The notes under the pieces: model-generated
What the model was told of the DNA's origin: nothing
The model's database searches: none
Seen by the model: only the letters and a program-made list of their open reading frames with translations
In this document: positions 10,936 to 62,390 of the stretch, piece after piece
How positions within the stretch are numbered: position 1 is the first letter of the stretch
Layout of the letters: each line of letters opens with the position of its first letter
Source: Prosopocoilus inquinatus
Lineage: Eukaryota > Arthropoda > Insecta > Coleoptera > Lucanidae
Direction: 5' to 3'
DNA length: 64,000 nt
NCBI GenBank assembly: GCA_036172665.1
Contig: CM069872.1
Coordinates: 38,302,101-38,366,100 of the forward strand
Translations under genes and position numbers: made by a program

Positions 10936-11183
10936 TTTGACCATTCCTGGAAAGTCCCTTTGAAGGATTAAAACATCGAAATTATTTTTTAAATTTCTTT
11001 GTCGCTGCTCGTTTATAACAGTCAGATTGCAAACTGTTGAACTTCATTATATTATAATTTATGTCAGTTACAAAGGCATATTAGGAATATAAATAAAATA
11101 AAACAAATGTGTGAAAATAACACTGTGTTTTTTTTAATAGTTTAAACAGCGACGCCCTGCGATCGTGATTATCTTTGGTCGAA

Positions 11184-11297
11184 TCGTTTTCGTTTGCAGT
11201 GGAACTCTCGAGCTATGCTTCTGCTGATGAAGTCCCGAATTGAACTGAAACAGTAAGTACAGAGGCTGCTCGACGGATTCACTGCAAACAAAAACGA
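11184..11297 (+). ncRNA. hammerhead ribozyme (type I), diverged solitary copy
   Basis: The core CTGATGA (11224-11230) is canonical. It is followed by stem II (outer pairs AGT/ACT), GAAAC (11247-11251), a 2-bp stem III (AC/GT) with an AGTAA loop, and the cleavage triplet GTA (11257-11259). Stem I pairs CTTCTG with CAGAGG, then TCGAGC with GCTCGA, and closes with CGTTTTCGTTTGCAGTG against CACTGCAAACAAAAACG. The layout matches the four ribozymes at 50.5-51.5 kb, but stem II is partly mismatched, so activity is doubtful. Just upstream (11147-11170) an inverted scrap of the same unit is visible. Confidence 0.75.
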
Positions 11298-12585
11298 TTT
11301 GCAACAAAAAAGTTTTTTTTTTTGTTTCTAATTGACAGTTTTTCTTGAAACTTTGCTGCGGGTATAAGAACGACGTTGGAATTTTATCTACTACTATAAT
11401 AACTACCCAATATTTAATTTCTTCGACTTCTGTTTAATTTCCTCCATATCTGTTATAATGAGGCAGTTAATTGGCCTTTGTTATTTAACTGCCTGCAATA
11501 ATGTGTGTTTACATAGTAGCCAGATAATTCCTTTAAGATTAATTACAAAGAGGTGACTGAGGGTAGATTTCTGAAGTCCACGAGAACATTTTTTTGTTGA
11601 ACGTTATTCTGAATGAATTTTGTGCAAGTTTCCATCTTTCCAAAAACTGTTATTTTTCTATTTTTATATCTTATTAATTTTAACAGTAATAAAACTGGTA
11701 GTAAAATAAGTACAAGCTGACAAGTAAACATTCCAAATAACGGATGTAACAAATATACAGAGTGCGAATCGGGCAACCGCCCGGGACCCGCACCAATATA
11801 CGAATTTTTGAATATTTATCTATTTACAAATAGATGTCCTTAATACTCCCTTAACAAATCGTGCTAGAGAAACAAGATTTTGGAAACAACATTTTCGACC
11901 GGCTCTTATTACTCGAATAACACCTGTTGTAAGAGGACTAGATTTTATGGTCTGCAATAATTTTTTTTAGAGTTTAAGTTTGCCTGTAAACAATCGCATT
12001 TGTTTTTAACTCTCGATATTCTAATAAGTTGGTTAATATTGGTTGATCCCCTTTCAAATTATACCTATTTTTAAAACAGTATGTGCAGATATACTGATTC
12101 AATTTGACTTTATTTCATTTCTTTTTAGTTTAGTTTTTTTTTTAGTTGTAAACCTATCGTATTTTGTCTTTACTTTATTCAATTTGACATTATTTTATAT
12201 TTTATTCATCAGTTTGTTTCCCTATTGTTTTTTATTTAGTACTCTTAATTCGTTTTGACTATTTACTTTCTTCTTATCTTCATCACCTATCGTCTTTTAT
12301 TTCGATTTAATTTAATTTATTTTTATTTTTACTATCAGTTTGTCTTTCATTCGATACGATTTAATATTTTTATTATCAATTGATCCTCTTTTGTCTTTTC
12401 TTATTTACTCGATTTGAGTTTATTTTACATTTTAATGTCTTTAACCGATCGCCATTTTTGTTTTTTCTTTTGTGCGATTTGATTTTCTTCAAGATATAAT
12501 TATTTTTTTAACTTTTTTTTACATTTTAATCTTTAATATCATTTAATTTATTATGGTGCAGTAATAATCGTGCTTAATAAACGAA

Positions 12586-21290: not shown

Positions 21291-21520
21291 CAAAGTTTCA
21301 ATTTCCCAGCTTAAGTTGTTCTACAAGATTCTTTCCAATTCTGTAATAAATCTGCGGAAAAAATTTTGGGCTGTGGTTCCTTTTTTACATTTACTATTTT
21401 GACTCAATTCAATTTCCTCCAGAATTTGAATTGAATTAAATTTGTTCATTTAGATAGTGATGTTAAAAATCTCATTTCTGTTGGTGTTAACAGAAGTTTA
21501 TGTACTCGCAGGTAACCAAA

Positions 21521-22735
21521 ATGTACAGAGCAGTTGTACTTCTTCTACTGTTTGGTTTGTTCACTACAACCTACCAACAACAAGCAGATAAAACCCAAGC
21601 AGTAAAGGATATCTTCGGCGATCCAAATATCGAGACGAAAAACCCTACCGTGCTCGGTTCTGACCAATGTGAATGCGTTCCCTATTATCTATGCAAGAAC
21701 GACTCCACCATCAACAAGAACGGCGAAGGAATCATCGACATTAGGTTCTTATTAAATTACCTTTTTTTTTTAATTGAATCTACGGTTTGTTATTTTAGGG
21801 TAGAAGAAAGTTCGTGTGCTAGTTACTTGGACGTATGTTGTTATCCTGAAGCGAAACAGGATAAGCCGATTCCTCCACCTCCTGTAATCAGAGTCGGTTG
21901 TGGGGCGAGGAATACTTTCGGCGTTGGTTTTCGCATAACAGGCGATAAAGACAATGAAACCCAATTCGGGGAACTACCGTGGATGGTCGCCATAATCCGC
22001 GAGGAAAATGTTGAAGGACACGACGAGCTGTTGAACGTGTACCAGTGTGGAGGGGCCCTCATTCACCCTCAAGTTGTCTTGACAACAGCTCACTGCGCCG
22101 CGGCTAAAGACAAGAAGTATAAAGTCAGAGCAGGAGAATGGGATACGCAGACGACGAAAGAACTATACTCCCATCAAGACCGCGATGTTAAAACTGTAAT
22201 TTTACATCCAAATTATCACGCTGGCGCCTTGCACAATGACGTTGCTCTTCTCTTCTTGGACTCTCCTGTTGAATTAGCTCCTAATGTGGATGTTATTTGC
22301 TTACCCCCGAAAGACATCGTTGTACCACCCGGAACTCGTTGCATTGCCAGCGGGTGGGGTAAAGATGTATTCGGAGCCGAGGGACGCTACCAGGTCATTC
22401 TTAAAAAAATCGACTTGCCCATGGTGGATAGGGACGTGTGTCAGGAAAACTTGAGGAAGACGCGTCTGGGAAAATTCTTCGAATTGGATAAGAGTTTTGT
22501 ATGTGCGGGAGGAGAGTTGGGCAAAGATACATGCAAAGGGGACGGTGGTAGTCCCTTGGTATGCCCCATACCAGGCCAGAATAACAGATACCAACAGATC
22601 GGTATGGTTTCATGGGGTATAGGCTGCGGTGAAAATCAAATTCCAGGCGTCTATGTCAACGTGCCTCTGTTTATTGATTGGATTAATGCGCAGATATCTC
22701 AGCAAAAATTAGATCCCTCCGTAAGTCAGTATTAA
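21521..22735 (+). CDS. cSPH gene 4: clip-domain serine protease homolog
   Basis: Exons 21521-21744 and 21799-22735 encode 386 aa. Signal peptide about 1-20, VKDIFGDP at 28-35, clip Cys 50, 52, 58, 81, 88, 89, Pro-rich linker IPPPPVIR, protease-like domain from about 115. His173 (TTAHCA, unusual Thr), Asp222, Gly324 for Ser. The 54-nt intron is a multiple of three and has no in-frame stop, so an unspliced message would still encode a full protein with 18 extra mostly hydrophobic residues in the clip. Splicing is favoured because the donor and acceptor sit exactly where the other genes have theirs. A CTCGCAG acceptor 11 nt before the ATG marks a likely 5' UTR intron. The 3' end of the gene is repeated just downstream. 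Confidence 0.92.
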   Translation: MYRAVVLLLLFGLFTTTYQQQADKTQAVKDIFGDPNIETKNPTVLGSDQCECVPYYLCKNDSTINKNGEGIIDIRFLLNYLFFLIESTVCYFRVEESSCASYLDVCCYPEAKQDKPIPPPPVIRVGCGARNTFGVGFRITGDKDNETQFGELPWMVAIIREENVEGHDELLNVYQCGGALIHPQVVLTTAHCAAAKDKKYKVRAGEWDTQTTKELYSHQDRDVKTVILHPNYHAGALHNDVALLFLDSPVELAPNVDVICLPPKDIVVPPGTRCIASGWGKDVFGAEGRYQVILKKIDLPMVDRDVCQENLRKTRLGKFFELDKSFVCAGGELGKDTCKGDGGSPLVCPIPGQNNRYQQIGMVSWGIGCGENQIPGVYVNVPLFIDWINAQISQQKLDPSVSQY

Positions 22736-30177: not shown

Positions 30178-31459
30178 CAGGGTTGGAAAGTTTAGAACAA
30201 ACTGTTTAAAACGTAGTGTTTAAAATATGTTTCAAACACCGAATTAAAAACATACCGTTTGTTTTAAACAAAATGTTTAAAACATGTTTTTTTGCTAATG
30301 TTTTAAATTATTTTTTTTTAGTTTTAAGCTAAAAAAAAGAACACTTTTGATATAAGTGATTTATTTTTGCAAACGTAATACTGTGTAACCAAAAGCAAAT
30401 TGTTTAGGGTCTGTATTTCACTCACAGATTTACTTTAATCTTTAGTTTATTCCCATATCAATTGTTTTAATAATTGTAGACAATGCGTGGCTGAGCTGAT
30501 GACGTGATGACCACACTGTAGCTTTGATTTGAACTAAATTTGAATTGCATTACATTGACTATAATAAGTTCATTAATTATCACTGATCACTAGAATAATA
30601 CTTATATTAAATTTTAAAATACCTTTCATTATTTCATTAAGATTTGAAACATACTGGGTCCTATGCTTCATACAATGGGCGACGGGATGAGTTATTATGT
30701 AGCAAACTAGTTTCAATTTGTCAATCCTAATGCAATGTTAGGTCAAAAAGCGATCTTAGGATGTCGCTGTTTAAACTATTTATAACGTTATCGTTTCACT
30801 TGTCTTCATTGAATTTCTACCGTGTGTCCCAAGGCCATACATTCGGTAATTTTCAGACATATACCTACTGGACTTTCAGTTTTGCCGGACGTAATATCAA
30901 CTTTGTTATTTTAAATGGAACTATTTTTACATATTTGGAATTTTTGTTTTCCAATCTTGAAAGCCAACAGTCATGTATTATAGTTCTAATGCGATCAAGT
31001 AATTTGAAAACATTACTTCTATGGATTGTATTTGATTTTAGTTTTTCTTGGGAATGTTTTTTCTCAGTATGTTGATAGCAAATACTTCATACTTTCTTTT
31101 AAAACCATTTAAAACACCGCGACTGCAGATCCTAAATAAAACAAGATCTGCCTTAAATGTTTTAAAGTATTATCAAAGTACATACATTATTTTTTTTAAT
31201 TAGAGATCGAATTTGAATAAATCCTTTGTATCTTGTTACACAAATATCAAATAATAATAATAATAATAAGTACCTTTTACGTGAGCTATAAGGGCAATTT
31301 AAACATTTAATAGTGTTTTAAACAGCAGTTTTTTTTGGTTTAAAACATGTTTAATTTAGGCTCAATTTTAAACATGTTTTAAACAAAAAAAAAACTGTTT
31401 AAAATAAAAAAACAAAAGTGTTATTCTTTTAGAAAAAAGAAGTTTCTTTTCCAACCCTG
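30178..31459. mobile_element. non-autonomous hAT element, 1.28 kb
   Basis: The ends are CAGGGTTGGAAAG and CTTTTCCAACCCTG (inverted). The 8-bp flanks CTTACCGC and CTTAACGC differ at one base and look like a target duplication of hAT length. Both subterminal regions are dense in GTTTAAAAC / ACATGTTTTAAAC motifs, typical of transposase-binding repeats. There is no transposase. A fragment of the hammerhead repeat (30690-30785) is nested inside. Confidence 0.85.
30690..30785 (+). repeat. ribozyme-less fragment of the 315-bp hammerhead repeat
   Basis: AGTTTCAATTTGTC, CCTAATGCAATGTTAGGTC and AAAAAGCGATCTTAGGATG align with 51309-51365. It is embedded in the hAT element at 30178. Confidence 0.7.
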
Positions 31460-47850: not shown

Positions 47851-50310
47851 TTAGATTTTGCATTGTTTTATTAAATCTTCGGTATCTAATTCTTTCAATA
47901 AATCTGATTCTATTGATATGCTTGCAAGATTGTTAAGTCGGTTTTGCCCCACAGTTGATCTTAAATAATTTTTGATTATTTTTAATTTCGAAAAAGAACG
48001 TTCTGCCGTAGCAACAGAAACCGGCATTGTTAATAAAATCCGAAGTATTATGGTCGTATTTGGAAATGAATCCGCTAAGCTGTTAGTTATGATAAAATTT
48101 AATGTGTTTTCTGGATATGTTGTAATTTTTTCATCAAAATTTTGTAGAAATTGTAATTCTCTAAGAAGTTCAACAGCAATTATATCTTGTTCATTTCGAG
48201 TTTTGTCACTTAATACATTTTCAACTTTTTGACGCAATTCTAATTGTTCGTTTTCAGTGTAACTTTTAAATTTATCAAGATTCCACAGAAAACTGAAGTT
48301 TTGGGAATAAGAAGACAGAATTTGAAATCTTTCATCAACTGATGTTATTATTACATCTAGAATATTAAAAAAAAAACAATCAACTTTGAACTTTAAAGTT
48401 TCGTTTTTAATTGGTTCATCGTCACACTCATAATCAAATTGTCTTTTTACTTCCCGTGCTTTTAGACCCCTTCGTGTTTTAAATTCGGTTCAACATCTAA
48501 ATTAAATGCTATTTCTTTAGCATCGGCTAATAGATCATTAAAACCTTTATCGGATCGATATGTTTTCAAAAATTTGTTCAAATTATTTAATTGAGTACAA
48601 CACTGAACAACATCGAAATTTGAGTTTTGCATTATTTTGCTGACAATATTAAGTTTACTTAAAATATTATACCATATAATAAGAATGCAAATGAACTCGA
48701 AATTTTGTAATTTTTTGGCCAACGATGTAGCCAGATTCTGTACATTATTATCAAAATTTCCGCTTTTTCGCTTATTTCAAACAGAGCATCGTAAACTTCT
48801 CCAAGTTGATACATTAAGTGTGTTATAGCACCAATCCATCGAGACCATCTAGTATCCGACAAAGGTTTTAAAGTTAAATTTGTTATATGAGATTTTAAAA
48901 CTGACCAGCGGTTAGTAGAAGCCGAAAAAAATACAAACAATTCTTGATTTAACGAAAAGAAATTTATGCTCATAGTATTTGATTTTGCGGCATCATTTAC
49001 GACTAGATTTAAACTGTGATTACAGCAGGGGACAAAAAATGCTCGAGGATTTACATCCAAAATTTTTCTTTGGAGACCGTTATGCTTACCACGCATATTT
49101 GCCCCATTATTATAACCCTGACCCCGTAAGTCATTGATATCTAAGCCATTTGTCACTAAGGCTGACAAAAGAAATTTTCTCAAGCCCTCGCTTTATGTAT
49201 CATCTATAGGGGAAAAAAAATAGGAAATGTTCTTCTGTACTAATTCCTGTGTTTTTAAATTAACAAATCTTATGCAAACTGAAATTTATTCTTGATGACT
49301 AGAGTCAGGAGTACAGTCTAATAATACTGAAAAATATTTCGCCTTTCTAGCTAATTGTAGAATCTTCGATTTGATATTTTCGCCCATCAAATTGATTATT
49401 TCATTTTGTATTTTACCCCGAGTTAATGATGCATATTTTTGTAGTCTTGTGTCTGACATCGCTTTGTGTGTTCTAGCATAGTTGAGTCAAATTTTGAAAT
49501 AATTTCTATGCATTTTAAAAAGTTACCGTTACTTTTTTCGAATAAATTGTTAGTACTGCCACGAAAAGCTAAATTGTGCTCACTTAAAAACTGAATCACA
49601 TAGAAAATTCTTTCGATGACAGCTTGCCAGTATTTAGTTTCCTTGTTTACTAGTTCTTGAGTTTGAAAATCGATTATTGATTTTTTTCTAAACGACTGGA
49701 AAAATCTAGCAATTTTAAAACATTTGCTTTTTTCATGAATATTTAAATGTTCACTTAAGTGTGTCCGGTCGTTGTAGCCAGTTTCATCACTAAGACGAAC
49801 AGATTTGAAATCTGAATCGTTAAAAATTTTGCAACAAAAACAGTAAACGGAATTTTTTGTTTCAGAATATAACAGCCAAAAACGTTCAACTTTCTCCGTG
49901 TTTGGTAAAATTCTAGAAAAATAACTATTGGAAAATTAACGCCCCGAACTATTTCTAGGATAAACGTCCTTTTTGTTTTGGTAATAACTAGGGCCACGTT
50001 CCACCAAATCTAGAACTTCATTTGGATGTAATACTTTTGGCCATTGAGCTGCATCATTAGAAAGTTCTGCCAGCTTTTCTATATTTTCGGTTCGTGTTCT
50101 TGTTATATTTGAAGAACTGGGTTCCTCGTTTTCAGCACAAGCTGAAGTTGATGGCATGTTTTCATTGGTTTCCGGAATATTAATTTCTTGTATACATGCT
50201 TGTGAAGGAAAAAATTGTGTAATTTTGACATTTTTCTCCAGTTCTTCCTCTCTTTTTCTTTTATTCATCAAATTTTGATATCCTGACAACTTTTTCTTTT
50301 TTTCTGCCAT
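47851..50310 (-). pseudogene. hAT transposase, ZMYM1-like, broken
   Basis: Read on the minus strand from ATG at 50310: a Lys-rich start (MAEKKKKLSGYQNLMNKRKR), an acidic/Ser-rich linker, HPNEVLDLVERGPSYYQN, a TTF-type zinc finger region (about 49750-49930), then GQGYNNGANMRGKHNGLQRK and FFVPCCNHSLNLVVNDAAK (RNase H-fold, DUF4371-like; about 48960-49120), DTRWSRW. The C-terminal hAT dimerisation block follows (SVATAERSFSKLKIIKNYLR, about 47960-48020). Stops and frameshifts near 49190, 49450, 48470 and 48240 split it into at least five pieces, so it is inactive. Domain order and motifs are those of ZMYM1-like hAT transposases. Confidence 0.88.
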
Positions 50311-50561
50311 TCGCTAAAAATACACACATAATTAACCACAATTGAAAATATTTTAACACAAAAATAGTAATTTTATTGTGTAAGAAAACATAAATCTTTA
50401 TGAACATATAAAATAGCGACATCTTACTATCGCTTTTTGACCTAACATTGCAGTAGGATAGACAAATTGAAGCGGGATTTGCTCCTAATGAGTCCCCCAT
50501 GCAAGGCGGCCATGCTTGCTGTCAAAGCATAATGAAAGATTTTAGAAAAATTTTGTGCAAA

Positions 50562-50675
50562 TCGTTTTTGATTGCAGTGAGAACCTCGAGCAGCCTCTGG
50601 ACAGCTGTTTCAGCCCTGCTTGGGTCTTCTTCAGCAGAAACGTAGCTCGACATTCCCACTGCAGACCAAAAACGA
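50562..50675 (-). ncRNA. hammerhead ribozyme, array copy a
   Basis: Core on the minus strand, 50634 down to 50600: CTGAAGA, stem II AGACC..GGGCT with one mismatch, GAAA, ACA-GC-TGT stem III, cleavage triplet GTC (cut after the C complementary to 50600). Stem I is TTTCTG/CAGAGG, then TCGAGC/GCTCGA, then the long outer helix ending TCGTTTTTG/CAAAAACGA. Confidence 0.85.
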
Positions 50676-50876
50676 CTTGCCCAATTTATTCGCAAATGCG
50701 ATGTAAGAATGATGAACATATAAAATAGCGACATCTTACTATCGCTTTTTGACCTAACATTGCAGTAGGATAGACAAATTGAAGCGGGATTTGCTCCTAA
50801 TGAGTCCCCCATGCAAGGCGGCCATGCTTGCTGTCAAAGCATAATGAAAGATTTTAGAAAATTTTTTTTGTGCAAA

Positions 50877-50990
50877 TCGTTTTTGATTGCAGTGAGAACC
50901 TCGAGCAGCCTCTGGACAGCTGTTTCAGCCCTGCTTGGGGCTTCTTCAGCAGAAACGTAGCTCGACATTCCCACTGCAGACCAAAAACGA
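50877..50990 (-). ncRNA. hammerhead ribozyme, array copy b
   Basis: As copy a but with a perfect 5-bp stem II AGCCC/GGGCT and a CAAGCA loop. Core 50949 down to 50915; cleavage after the base complementary to 50915, exactly 315 nt from that of copy a. Confidence 0.9.
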
Positions 50991-51101
50991 CTTGCCCAAT
51001 TTATTCGCATTGCGAATAAATTGGGCAAAAAGCGATAGTAAGATGTCGCTATTTTATATGTTCATCATTCTTACATCGTATTTGCGAATAAATTGGGCAA
51101 G

Positions 51102-51215
51102 TCGTTTTTGGTCTGCAGTGGAAATGTCGAGCTACGTTTCTGCTGAAGAAGCCCCAAGCAGGGCTGAAACAGCTGTCCAGAGGCTGCTCGAGGTTCTCAC
51201 TGCAATCAAAAACGA
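51102..51215 (+). ncRNA. hammerhead ribozyme, array copy c
   Basis: CTGAAGA 51143-51149, stem II AGCCC(CAAGCA)GGGCT, GAAA 51166-51169, ACA-GC-TGT, GTC 51175-51177 with cleavage predicted after 51177. Outer stem I CGTTTTTGGTCTGCAGTG pairs with CACTGCAATCAAAAACG. Confidence 0.9.
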
Positions 51216-51416
51216 TTTGCACAAAAAAATTTTTCTAAAATCTTTCATTATGCTTTGACAGCAAGCATGGCCGCCTTGCATGGGGGACTCATTAGGAGCA
51301 AATCCCGCTTCAATTTGTCTATCCTACTGCAATGTTAGGTCAAAAAGCGATAGTAAGATGTCGCTATTTTATATGTTCATCATTCTTACATCGCATTTGC
51401 GAATAAATTGGGCAAG

Positions 51417-51530
51417 TCGTTTTTGGTCTGCAGTGGGAATGTCGAGCTACGTTTCTGCTGAAGAAGCCCCAAGCAGGGCTGAAACAGCTGTCCAGAGGCT
51501 GCTCGAGGTTCTCACTGCAATCAAAAACGA
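51417..51530 (+). ncRNA. hammerhead ribozyme, array copy d
   Basis: Same sequence as copy c except one base in stem I. Core 51458-51492, cleavage predicted after 51492, 315 nt downstream of copy c, so transcription of the + strand would release a 315-nt monomer. Confidence 0.9.
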
Positions 51531-52162
51531 TTTGCACAAAAAAAAATTTTAATAAATCTTTATGTTATTAAGTGTTGCATCTAAAATTTAAAATAGTGAA
51601 CAAACGATAATTTTTAGAATCATTTAATATAAAATTCAAAATCGTAATGAAAAATATATAACTTCAAGATAAATGTGTTTTAGAATTTAATATTTATATA
51701 TAATATTTATATAATAAATTAATAATAATGCTTTATGCTTGATAATATTTCAACTTCAAATACAATGGGTTTTAAGTAATTTAAAAAATTTATTAATTAT
51801 AGCTCTACTTACCTTAGCCGTTTGACCAATACCTAAACAATTTGCACCACACGTCACTAGATAAATACACGACGCTACCCGAAGCAAATATTTATATGCT
51901 TCTTAGGATGCAAGTTCAAACACGAAAATAATTCAGTTTGATCTTGTAACATGATTCAGAATTTAATCCATCATCTAGTCCTGGCATATTTTAGAAAAGA
52001 ACTTCGTAATTATTCGGTTATTACGCTTTTAAATTTTGGAAATCAAACAGCGCCCTTCGGCGCCTCGGGCGCCTTGGCGCCGTCGTGCAACGCACGACTT
52101 TGCACTTATGTACGGCGCGGGTCTGAAGCCAGGACACAGAAAAGAAATGGCTATGCCTATAA

Positions 52163-52498
52163 TAGTACAGGTGCGGCCTTTGAAAACTGGTACACGTTGA
52201 CTTTGTTTCGGCGATGTAAACTGATCCTAAATTTCAAGTTTTTAAGCGTCATTCAAATCATTCAAAGGCCGAGTTAAGTGAGCGGTCAAATGGCACAGAA
52301 TCGTCGAGTCAACGGTCCGACTAAATCCTCAGACCAATCAGCAACTGAGAAAAGTGATCACGTGATTCGGTCTGACCACTTCGACCGTTCACTAACTCCT
52401 GCATGGATCTGTAAAATTTGACACATTACAAAACTAAAAATTTTGGATATTGATGCGAATTCTCAGTGTACCAGTTTTCAAGGGCCACAAGTGTACCA
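52163..52498. mobile_element. MITE-like inverted-repeat element upstream of gene 9
   Basis: TAGTACAGGTGCGGCCTTTG and GAAAACTGGTACAC at the left mirror GTGTACCAGTTTTC and AAGGGCCACAAGTGTACCA at the right. The interior has a second inverted repeat (GAGCGGTCAAATGG against CGACCGTTCAC). It begins 30 bp beyond the hAT target duplication; no clear target duplication of its own. Confidence 0.75.
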
Positions 52499-62340: not shown

Positions 62341-62390
62341 AATGCAAAATCAGGTCAAAAAGCGATTGTAGGATGTTGCTCTTTAAGCTT
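62341..62390 (+). repeat. short fragment of the 315-bp hammerhead repeat
   Basis: AATCAGGTCAAAAAGCGATT and GTAGGATGTTGCT align with 51336-51365; the rest of the unit is absent. Confidence 0.6.

Follow-up and report, generated by a model that had tools for sequence, protein, structure and literature searches.

The window considered here, i.e., the whole analysed stretch of 64,000 nucleotides of the lucanid beetle Prosopocoilus inquinatus (assembly GCA_036172665.1, contig CM069872.1, positions 38,302,101 to 38,366,100), contains at 7575-57533 a cluster of serine protease homologue genes, one of which, at 21491-22732, matches phenoloxidase-activating factor 2; the named relatives of a serine protease, among the 120 listed of 2,472, are insects. 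Within it, sequence and repeat analysis delimit a single insertion of 1,149 bp (50403-51551), flanked by two copies of ATAAATCTTTATG and composed of two minus-strand and two plus-strand units arranged head to head, with a start-to-start spacing of 315 bp. The left copy of the duplication (50390-50402; 12 bp and one ambiguous base, with AAC just before it) is followed by the left arm (50403-51009, minus strand), antisense to the RNA, whose outer end lies at a site denoted B (about u200, u positions being counted from the predicted cleavage site, u1). The right arm (51023-51551, plus strand) is of RNA sense, with its outer end at site A (about u63), and is followed by the right copy of the duplication (51552-51564). 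Each arm carries two hammerhead cores. The central junction (51005-51028, plus strand) includes a short segment that matches u214-238 and can fold back onto the left arm.

The original prediction had placed a retrozyme-like array with a 315-nt monomer in this very span, which coincides exactly with the insertion between the two duplications; the reading is judged right, and the inverted layout of two minus and two plus units is borne out by the repeat analysis and by the arms, which are 98-100% complementary. The unit is 315 bp long with a GC content of 42.9%, and in one of the three families distinguished the spacing is 312 rather than 315. One predicted monomer, u1-u315, occupies 51178-51492 (plus strand), and at each aligned position it has the base most common among the copies sampled, differences in length of the A/T run near u46-57 being left uncounted; the A run at that place is shorter in many copies than in the window monomer. 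The sole frame of at least 120 aa within the insertion measures 120 aa from stop to stop (50896-51258), and none is long enough for a Penelope-like ORF with reverse transcriptase (RT) and GIY-YIG domains; no RT or endonuclease was found to be encoded by the retrozyme.

The insertion had also been described as nested in a hAT transposon, a claim for which the features covered gave insufficient support. A hAT dimerisation domain (PF05699) is located at 47851-48489 on the minus strand, a second frame, at 48659-49192 (minus), matches no Pfam family, and of the 219 inverted pairs the 25 longest include no evident hAT terminal repeats that would enclose the insertion. A stretch of about 330 bp at 52165-52496, with 31-bp inverted ends (87%), is MITE-like.

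Hammerhead Cores and Predicted Cleavage

The cores at 50909-50955 (minus), 51137-51183 (plus), and 51452-51498 (plus) are identical over 47 nt, and the core at 50594-50640 (minus) differs by one base, which produces a mismatch in stem II. The claim that every conserved element is preserved in four copies is therefore fully correct for three of the four cores. The type I hammerhead geometry, with the conserved elements in order, and the predicted cuts can be read from the sequence as originally described: the latter lie at 50599/50600 and 50914/50915 on the minus strand and at 51177/51178 and 51492/51493 on the plus strand, in both cases 315 nt apart.

In a covariance-model search the minus cores matched Hammerhead_1 with 20.0 bits (50594-50640, E 0.097) and 23.8 bits (50909-50955, E 0.0054), and in the same scan the plus cores were listed solely as Hammerhead_HH9, with 14.5 bits. 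Scanned alone, the core at 51137-51183 reached 23.8 bits with Hammerhead_1 (E 0.00048). These matches, from the kind of covariance check suggested earlier, are all below the Rfam gathering score of 34, which is why the default Rfam scan of the whole window returned no Hammerhead_1 match.

Stem I closes a 114-nt fold whose stability greatly exceeds that of shuffled counterparts (z -6.87, 0 of 200), although in the minimum-energy form of this fold part of the core is paired unlike in an active hammerhead. Stem III consists merely of ACA/UGU around GC. Keeping the conserved loops unpaired costs the model 4.9 kcal/mol relative to the best fold, and stem III remains unformed, so that dimers may be required for cleavage; from the 3-bp stem III together with the palindromic ACAGCUGU, more efficient cleavage in dimers is predicted. 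Between subfamilies the stem I pair 19/260 covaries (C-G 44, T-A 8, T-G 7, and G-G 1). Taken by its sequence, the retrozyme RNA is probably self-cleaving.

Copies in the Genome

The exact 41-nt core occurs 10,729 times (5,315 + 5,414) in the 650-Mb genome of 173 contigs and its reversed control not once, and the cores of the window can therefore not be considered a product of chance. The array is one of thousands of copies, and its inverted layout is the rule. Among 100 listed of the 10,729 cores, neighbours closer than 2 kb were oriented minus-plus in 22 cases, minus-minus in six, plus-plus in three, and plus-minus in none.

The main sample comprised the first 60 loci (places or groups) of the exact-core list on one contig, taken in chromosome order with structure disregarded; it is conditional on an exact core and spans one end of that contig. 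These loci yielded 66 clusters, whose divergence, for clusters longer than 100 nt, lies between 0 and 6.7%, a single cluster reaching 18.8%. Dispersed copies were thus found in the genome, a search of which the original prediction had proposed, and most two-armed insertions have target duplications. The array of the window is an ordinary member of an unusual family.

Older copies are also present in the window itself. In the one at 1420-1585 (85% identity) the left-hand A arm is short and the sense arm terminates at B, and a more diverged one at 11140-11317 (79%) has a CTGATGA core; inspection by eye places a short B-like arm in antisense (GTTTAAACAGCGACGCC) before the latter, for which an alignment test gave no support. 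Two old remnants of the unit, both short and with an end close to site B, lie at 30712-30772, where no second arm was found, and at 62343-62384.

Two Outer Ends, One Template Type

The outer ends of the insertions cluster at two places in the unit, A (mostly u59-68) and B (mostly u197-211), the two bins having been defined after the ends had been seen. Of the 66 clusters, 17 were unclassifiable and were dropped before counting; among the remaining 49, A at one end was opposed to B at the other in 47 (28 with A on the left, 19 with B on the left), two were B/B, and none was A/A, an excess with P = 2e-12 if each end were chosen freely at one half. A second set, picked by similarity, gave 15 A/B and one A/A among 16 classifiable clusters; it comprised 24 clusters, eight of them unclassifiable and one further cut off, and six loci counted as repeats of the same insertion were left out. 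The three exceptions are loci L049 and L052, both B/B, and L030, an A/A case with one end borderline at u72. Short second arms had been overlooked by BLAST in three of the 18 cases tried (L031, L042, and the copy at window position 1446); in the other 15 no hidden arm was found. The first cluster of L053 appears one-armed, yet it has a 12-bp duplication.

In the 53 two-armed insertions examined, that of the window included, A arms measure 61-737 nt and B arms 33-610 nt, and the two lengths within one insertion are weakly related (r 0.19). Of the A arms, 47 of 49 cross the predicted cut, as do 29 of 53 B arms, and a cleaved linear monomer cannot have templated arms that run past it. All 53 junctions are distinct. 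The arms overlap there by at least 2 nt in 33 of 53, two of the overlaps being very long, compared with about 17% in simulation, a figure to be read with care, as the ends are those set by BLAST.

Seven positions are diagnostic. The bases found there in the two opposite arms of an insertion are the same in 204 of 207 comparisons, and those of units on one strand in 69 of 74, versus 7,084 of 12,211 between different insertions; judged by these bases, each insertion stems from one template type. The predicted fold of the circular unit has an energy of -112.1 kcal/mol against -75.5 kcal/mol for shuffled sequences (z -6.9, 100 shuffles). In this fold the A and B windows rank 6 and 12 of 315 for unpairedness (0.76 and 0.74), and the value for B falls to 0.61 in the second subfamily.

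Target Site and Duplications

An exact flanking word of at least 12 bases is shared by the two sides of 43 of 54 two-armed insertions, that of the window included, as compared with about 0.5% of 2,862 mismatched pairs. The duplication is most often 12 bp long (28 cases), followed by 13 bp (12 cases), and its sequence differs between sites. Of 48 insertions sharing a word of at least 11 bases, the 24 whose duplication is exactly 12 bp long give a palindromic target, AAY-NWTAAWWTTAWN-RTT, i.e., AAY-N12-RTT; the site in the window is AAC-ATAAATCTTTAT-GTT if 12 of its 13 shared bases are used. For these 24 insertions, and against a background of 1.9%, GTT stands directly after the inferred nick in 16 of 48 instances, and in all 40 A/B cases, with ambiguous bases unresolved, GTT or AAC stands at the flank in just 9 and 10 of 40, respectively. 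The palindromic site and the 12-bp duplication lead us to infer that both strands are cut with 12-nt 3' overhangs.

A Penelope-Like Element of the Same Genome

A search of the genome for GIY-YIG domains gave 2,232 candidates, of which 150 were scored, mostly with one identical score, with open frames of up to 788 aa. Among these 150, neighbours closer than 10 kb were oriented minus-plus in 47 cases, minus-minus in one, and plus-minus in none, with gaps of 74 to 8,923 bp. One Penelope insertion, L091, has perfect inverted arms of 544 nt, one end being 33 nt longer; its flanks share a 15-base word, ATTATTTTTTTTTAA, which shrinks to 12 bp on the assumption that this copy ends where the others do. 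Three further Penelope insertions (L092-L097), selected for closely spaced GIY-YIG pairs, each combine a short end (CTATTTATT) with a tailed one (TTGCTTTGTGATT), and their duplications read as 11, 12, and 13 bp. The pair of a short and a tailed end was therefore present in all four insertions checked; the AAC/GTT motif was recognised by eye at two of their seven readable half-sites. An element of the L091 type looks, from its sequence, to bear a scar like that of the retrozyme: head to head, with two distinct 3' ends, and between duplications. The two 3' ends are 33 nt apart in Penelope versus 137 nt from A to B in the retrozyme.

In L091 Pfam recognises a GIY-YIG domain, and in L049 there is an RT of Penelope type that matches RVT_1 and may or may not belong to the same family. 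It is also worth mentioning that the RT frame of L049 (1935-3101) lies about 170 bp from a retrozyme copy with two B-like ends. Upstream of the Penelope ends a minimal hammerhead-like sequence (CTGAAGA ... GAAA TACGTA TT) can be read by eye; Rfam applied to L091 1300-1600 found nothing up to E 5. Matches of 41 nt (83%) to the hammerhead-like part of the Penelope copy occur at L049 1099-1139, L011 3196-3236, and L012 2882-2922, L011 and L012 overlapping and representing one place, and in view of them there may be further families of Penelope-like ribozymes.

Between the retrozyme unit and the Penelope 3' region there is no significant similarity, 82 of 500 shuffles being equally good; for a smaller window, picked afterwards, 3 of 1000 shuffles were as good. 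A sequence common to the Penelope 3' end and the retrozyme, TCGAGG..TTCTCACT, was considered and discarded as non-significant overall.

Relation to Known Elements

Animal retrozymes and head-to-head Penelope copies are already known. The metazoan non-LTR retrozymes of Cervera and de la Pena (2020, PMC7229834) share with the family described here the type I hammerhead, tandem units (about 170-400 nt there, 315 here), low GC content, target duplications of more than 4 bp, and the presence of Penelope-like elements in the same genome. Of the features by which metazoan retrozymes are recognised, several are found here: a type I hammerhead in each unit (scoring below the gathering threshold), tandem units of about 150-450 bp, GC below 50%, and dispersed copies with target duplications. 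What sets the copies in P. inquinatus apart is that most of them stand head to head, bounded by two fixed ends and a duplication of 12 bp; neither "inverted" nor "orientation" occurs in the main text of that paper. Similarly, "head-to-head" does not occur in the portion of PMC8490949 on Schistosoma hammerhead satellites considered here.

Penelope-like elements have been named, without a test, as the likely movers of animal retrozymes (PMC7229834 and, in the portion considered, PMC7761336). In endonuclease-containing Penelope-like elements, as far as portrayed in the parts of PMC3846280 drawn upon and in PMC11167929, head-to-head copies, target duplications, AT-rich targets, an optional tail on one end, an internal start of reverse transcription, and a hammerhead occur as in the retrozyme. 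In the former, head-to-head copies with a tail on one end were attributed to self-priming, and the duplications given there measure 8, 9, or 10 bp or are absent. In the latter, the purified Penelope protein cleaved and extended both target strands, starting at internal sites of its RNA; ATT was found at the commonest cut, and the start site did not differ between the strands. No report of a retrozyme with a two-end rule was found in the open-licence literature searched. What appears to be new is the anatomy of the retrozyme insertions and its resemblance to that of a Penelope element residing alongside them in this genome.

Proposed Mechanism and Alternatives

The array of the window is, in our judgement, likely to be a young insertion; it would belong to an animal retrozyme present in high copy number, whose integration proceeds through target-primed reverse transcription at two ends. 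Tandem transcripts would self-cleave at the hammerhead and then circularise or remain multimeric. A Penelope-like enzyme with RT and GIY-YIG activities, probably acting as a dimer, would cut both strands at the AT-rich palindromic site AAY-N12-RTT, and the double cut would leave 12-nt 3' overhangs. Each 3' end would then prime cDNA synthesis on the same RNA, one at A (about u63) and the other at B (about u200), both being single-stranded A/U-rich segments predicted to lie within one multiloop. Each cDNA would extend over a variable distance, at times more than once round, and the two cDNA ends would join where they match over a few bases, so that an antisense arm meets a sense arm head to head and 12-bp duplications flank the pair. 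The original prediction expected complementary monomers from the inverted arrangement; as a purpose of the inversion these are not needed, as the inversion, which is the usual form of these insertions, arises when they are formed and is better explained by integration.

A more specific version, which we are equally ready to accept and to doubt, is that the template is a ribozyme-made RNA circle with two programmed initiation sites held adjacent by its fold, and that an enzyme of Penelope type, acting as a dimer, uses both ends of a single staggered break to copy this one circle, assigning A to one end and B to the other. The same two-ended mechanism could instead use an uncleaved multimeric transcript, the ribozyme being unneeded for integration, which we consider possible but rather unlikely. 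A multimeric linear RNA accounts for the arms, which freely cross the cut site, equally well as a circle, and ribozyme mutants left insertion in vitro unchanged (PMC11167929). Known animal retrozymes, on the other hand, accumulate as circles according to PMC7229834; the inner ends that coincide with u1, three in number, are too few to decide.

It is improbable that the arms are made through twin priming by an L1-like or other LINE in place of a Penelope-like enzyme. The duplications would fit, as would the RNA 3' sides joined to the target at both ends, and other RT-like frames, recognised by motif alone, are present in L041, L050, and L072; the Penelope element of the same genome, with its matching anatomy, speaks for the other enzyme. 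L1 twin priming likewise leaves an inverted upstream part and short matches at the junction. In the retrozyme, in contrast, the second priming site is fixed and the two ends obey one rule, and twin priming is not known for a second start at a fixed place, for palindromic targets, or for duplications narrowly confined to 12 bp.

Self-priming, in which a single cDNA folds back and copies itself, would also give a head-to-head layout, the junction of the window holds a short fold-back piece, and palindromes at Penelope junctions are reported in the part of PMC3846280 drawn upon. The copied arm would, however, share its outer position with the first (A/A or B/B), whereas the ends are A/B in 47 of 49 clusters, and the second arm could not outgrow the first, whereas the lengths are weakly related. 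As the main route it is largely refuted by the A/B rule and very improbable, although small fillers may still arise in this way. Long inverted repeats, internal tandem units, and a fixed-length duplication would suit a foldback-type DNA transposon or MITE, or a rearranged satellite array, with hammerheads as passengers, but the foldback or MITE reading was rejected because the outer termini do not carry the same sequence (A opposite B in 47 of 49), and the unique junctions (53 of 53), duplications that vary by site, and the covarying stem I pair make either version hardly credible.

Two-ended target-primed reverse transcription remains the preferred reading, and the scars left by this family, with their two different fixed ends, one template type, palindromic cut site, and 12-bp stagger, can serve to separate models of integration. 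A family with more than 10,000 exact core copies in one genome makes a test with purified protein directly possible.
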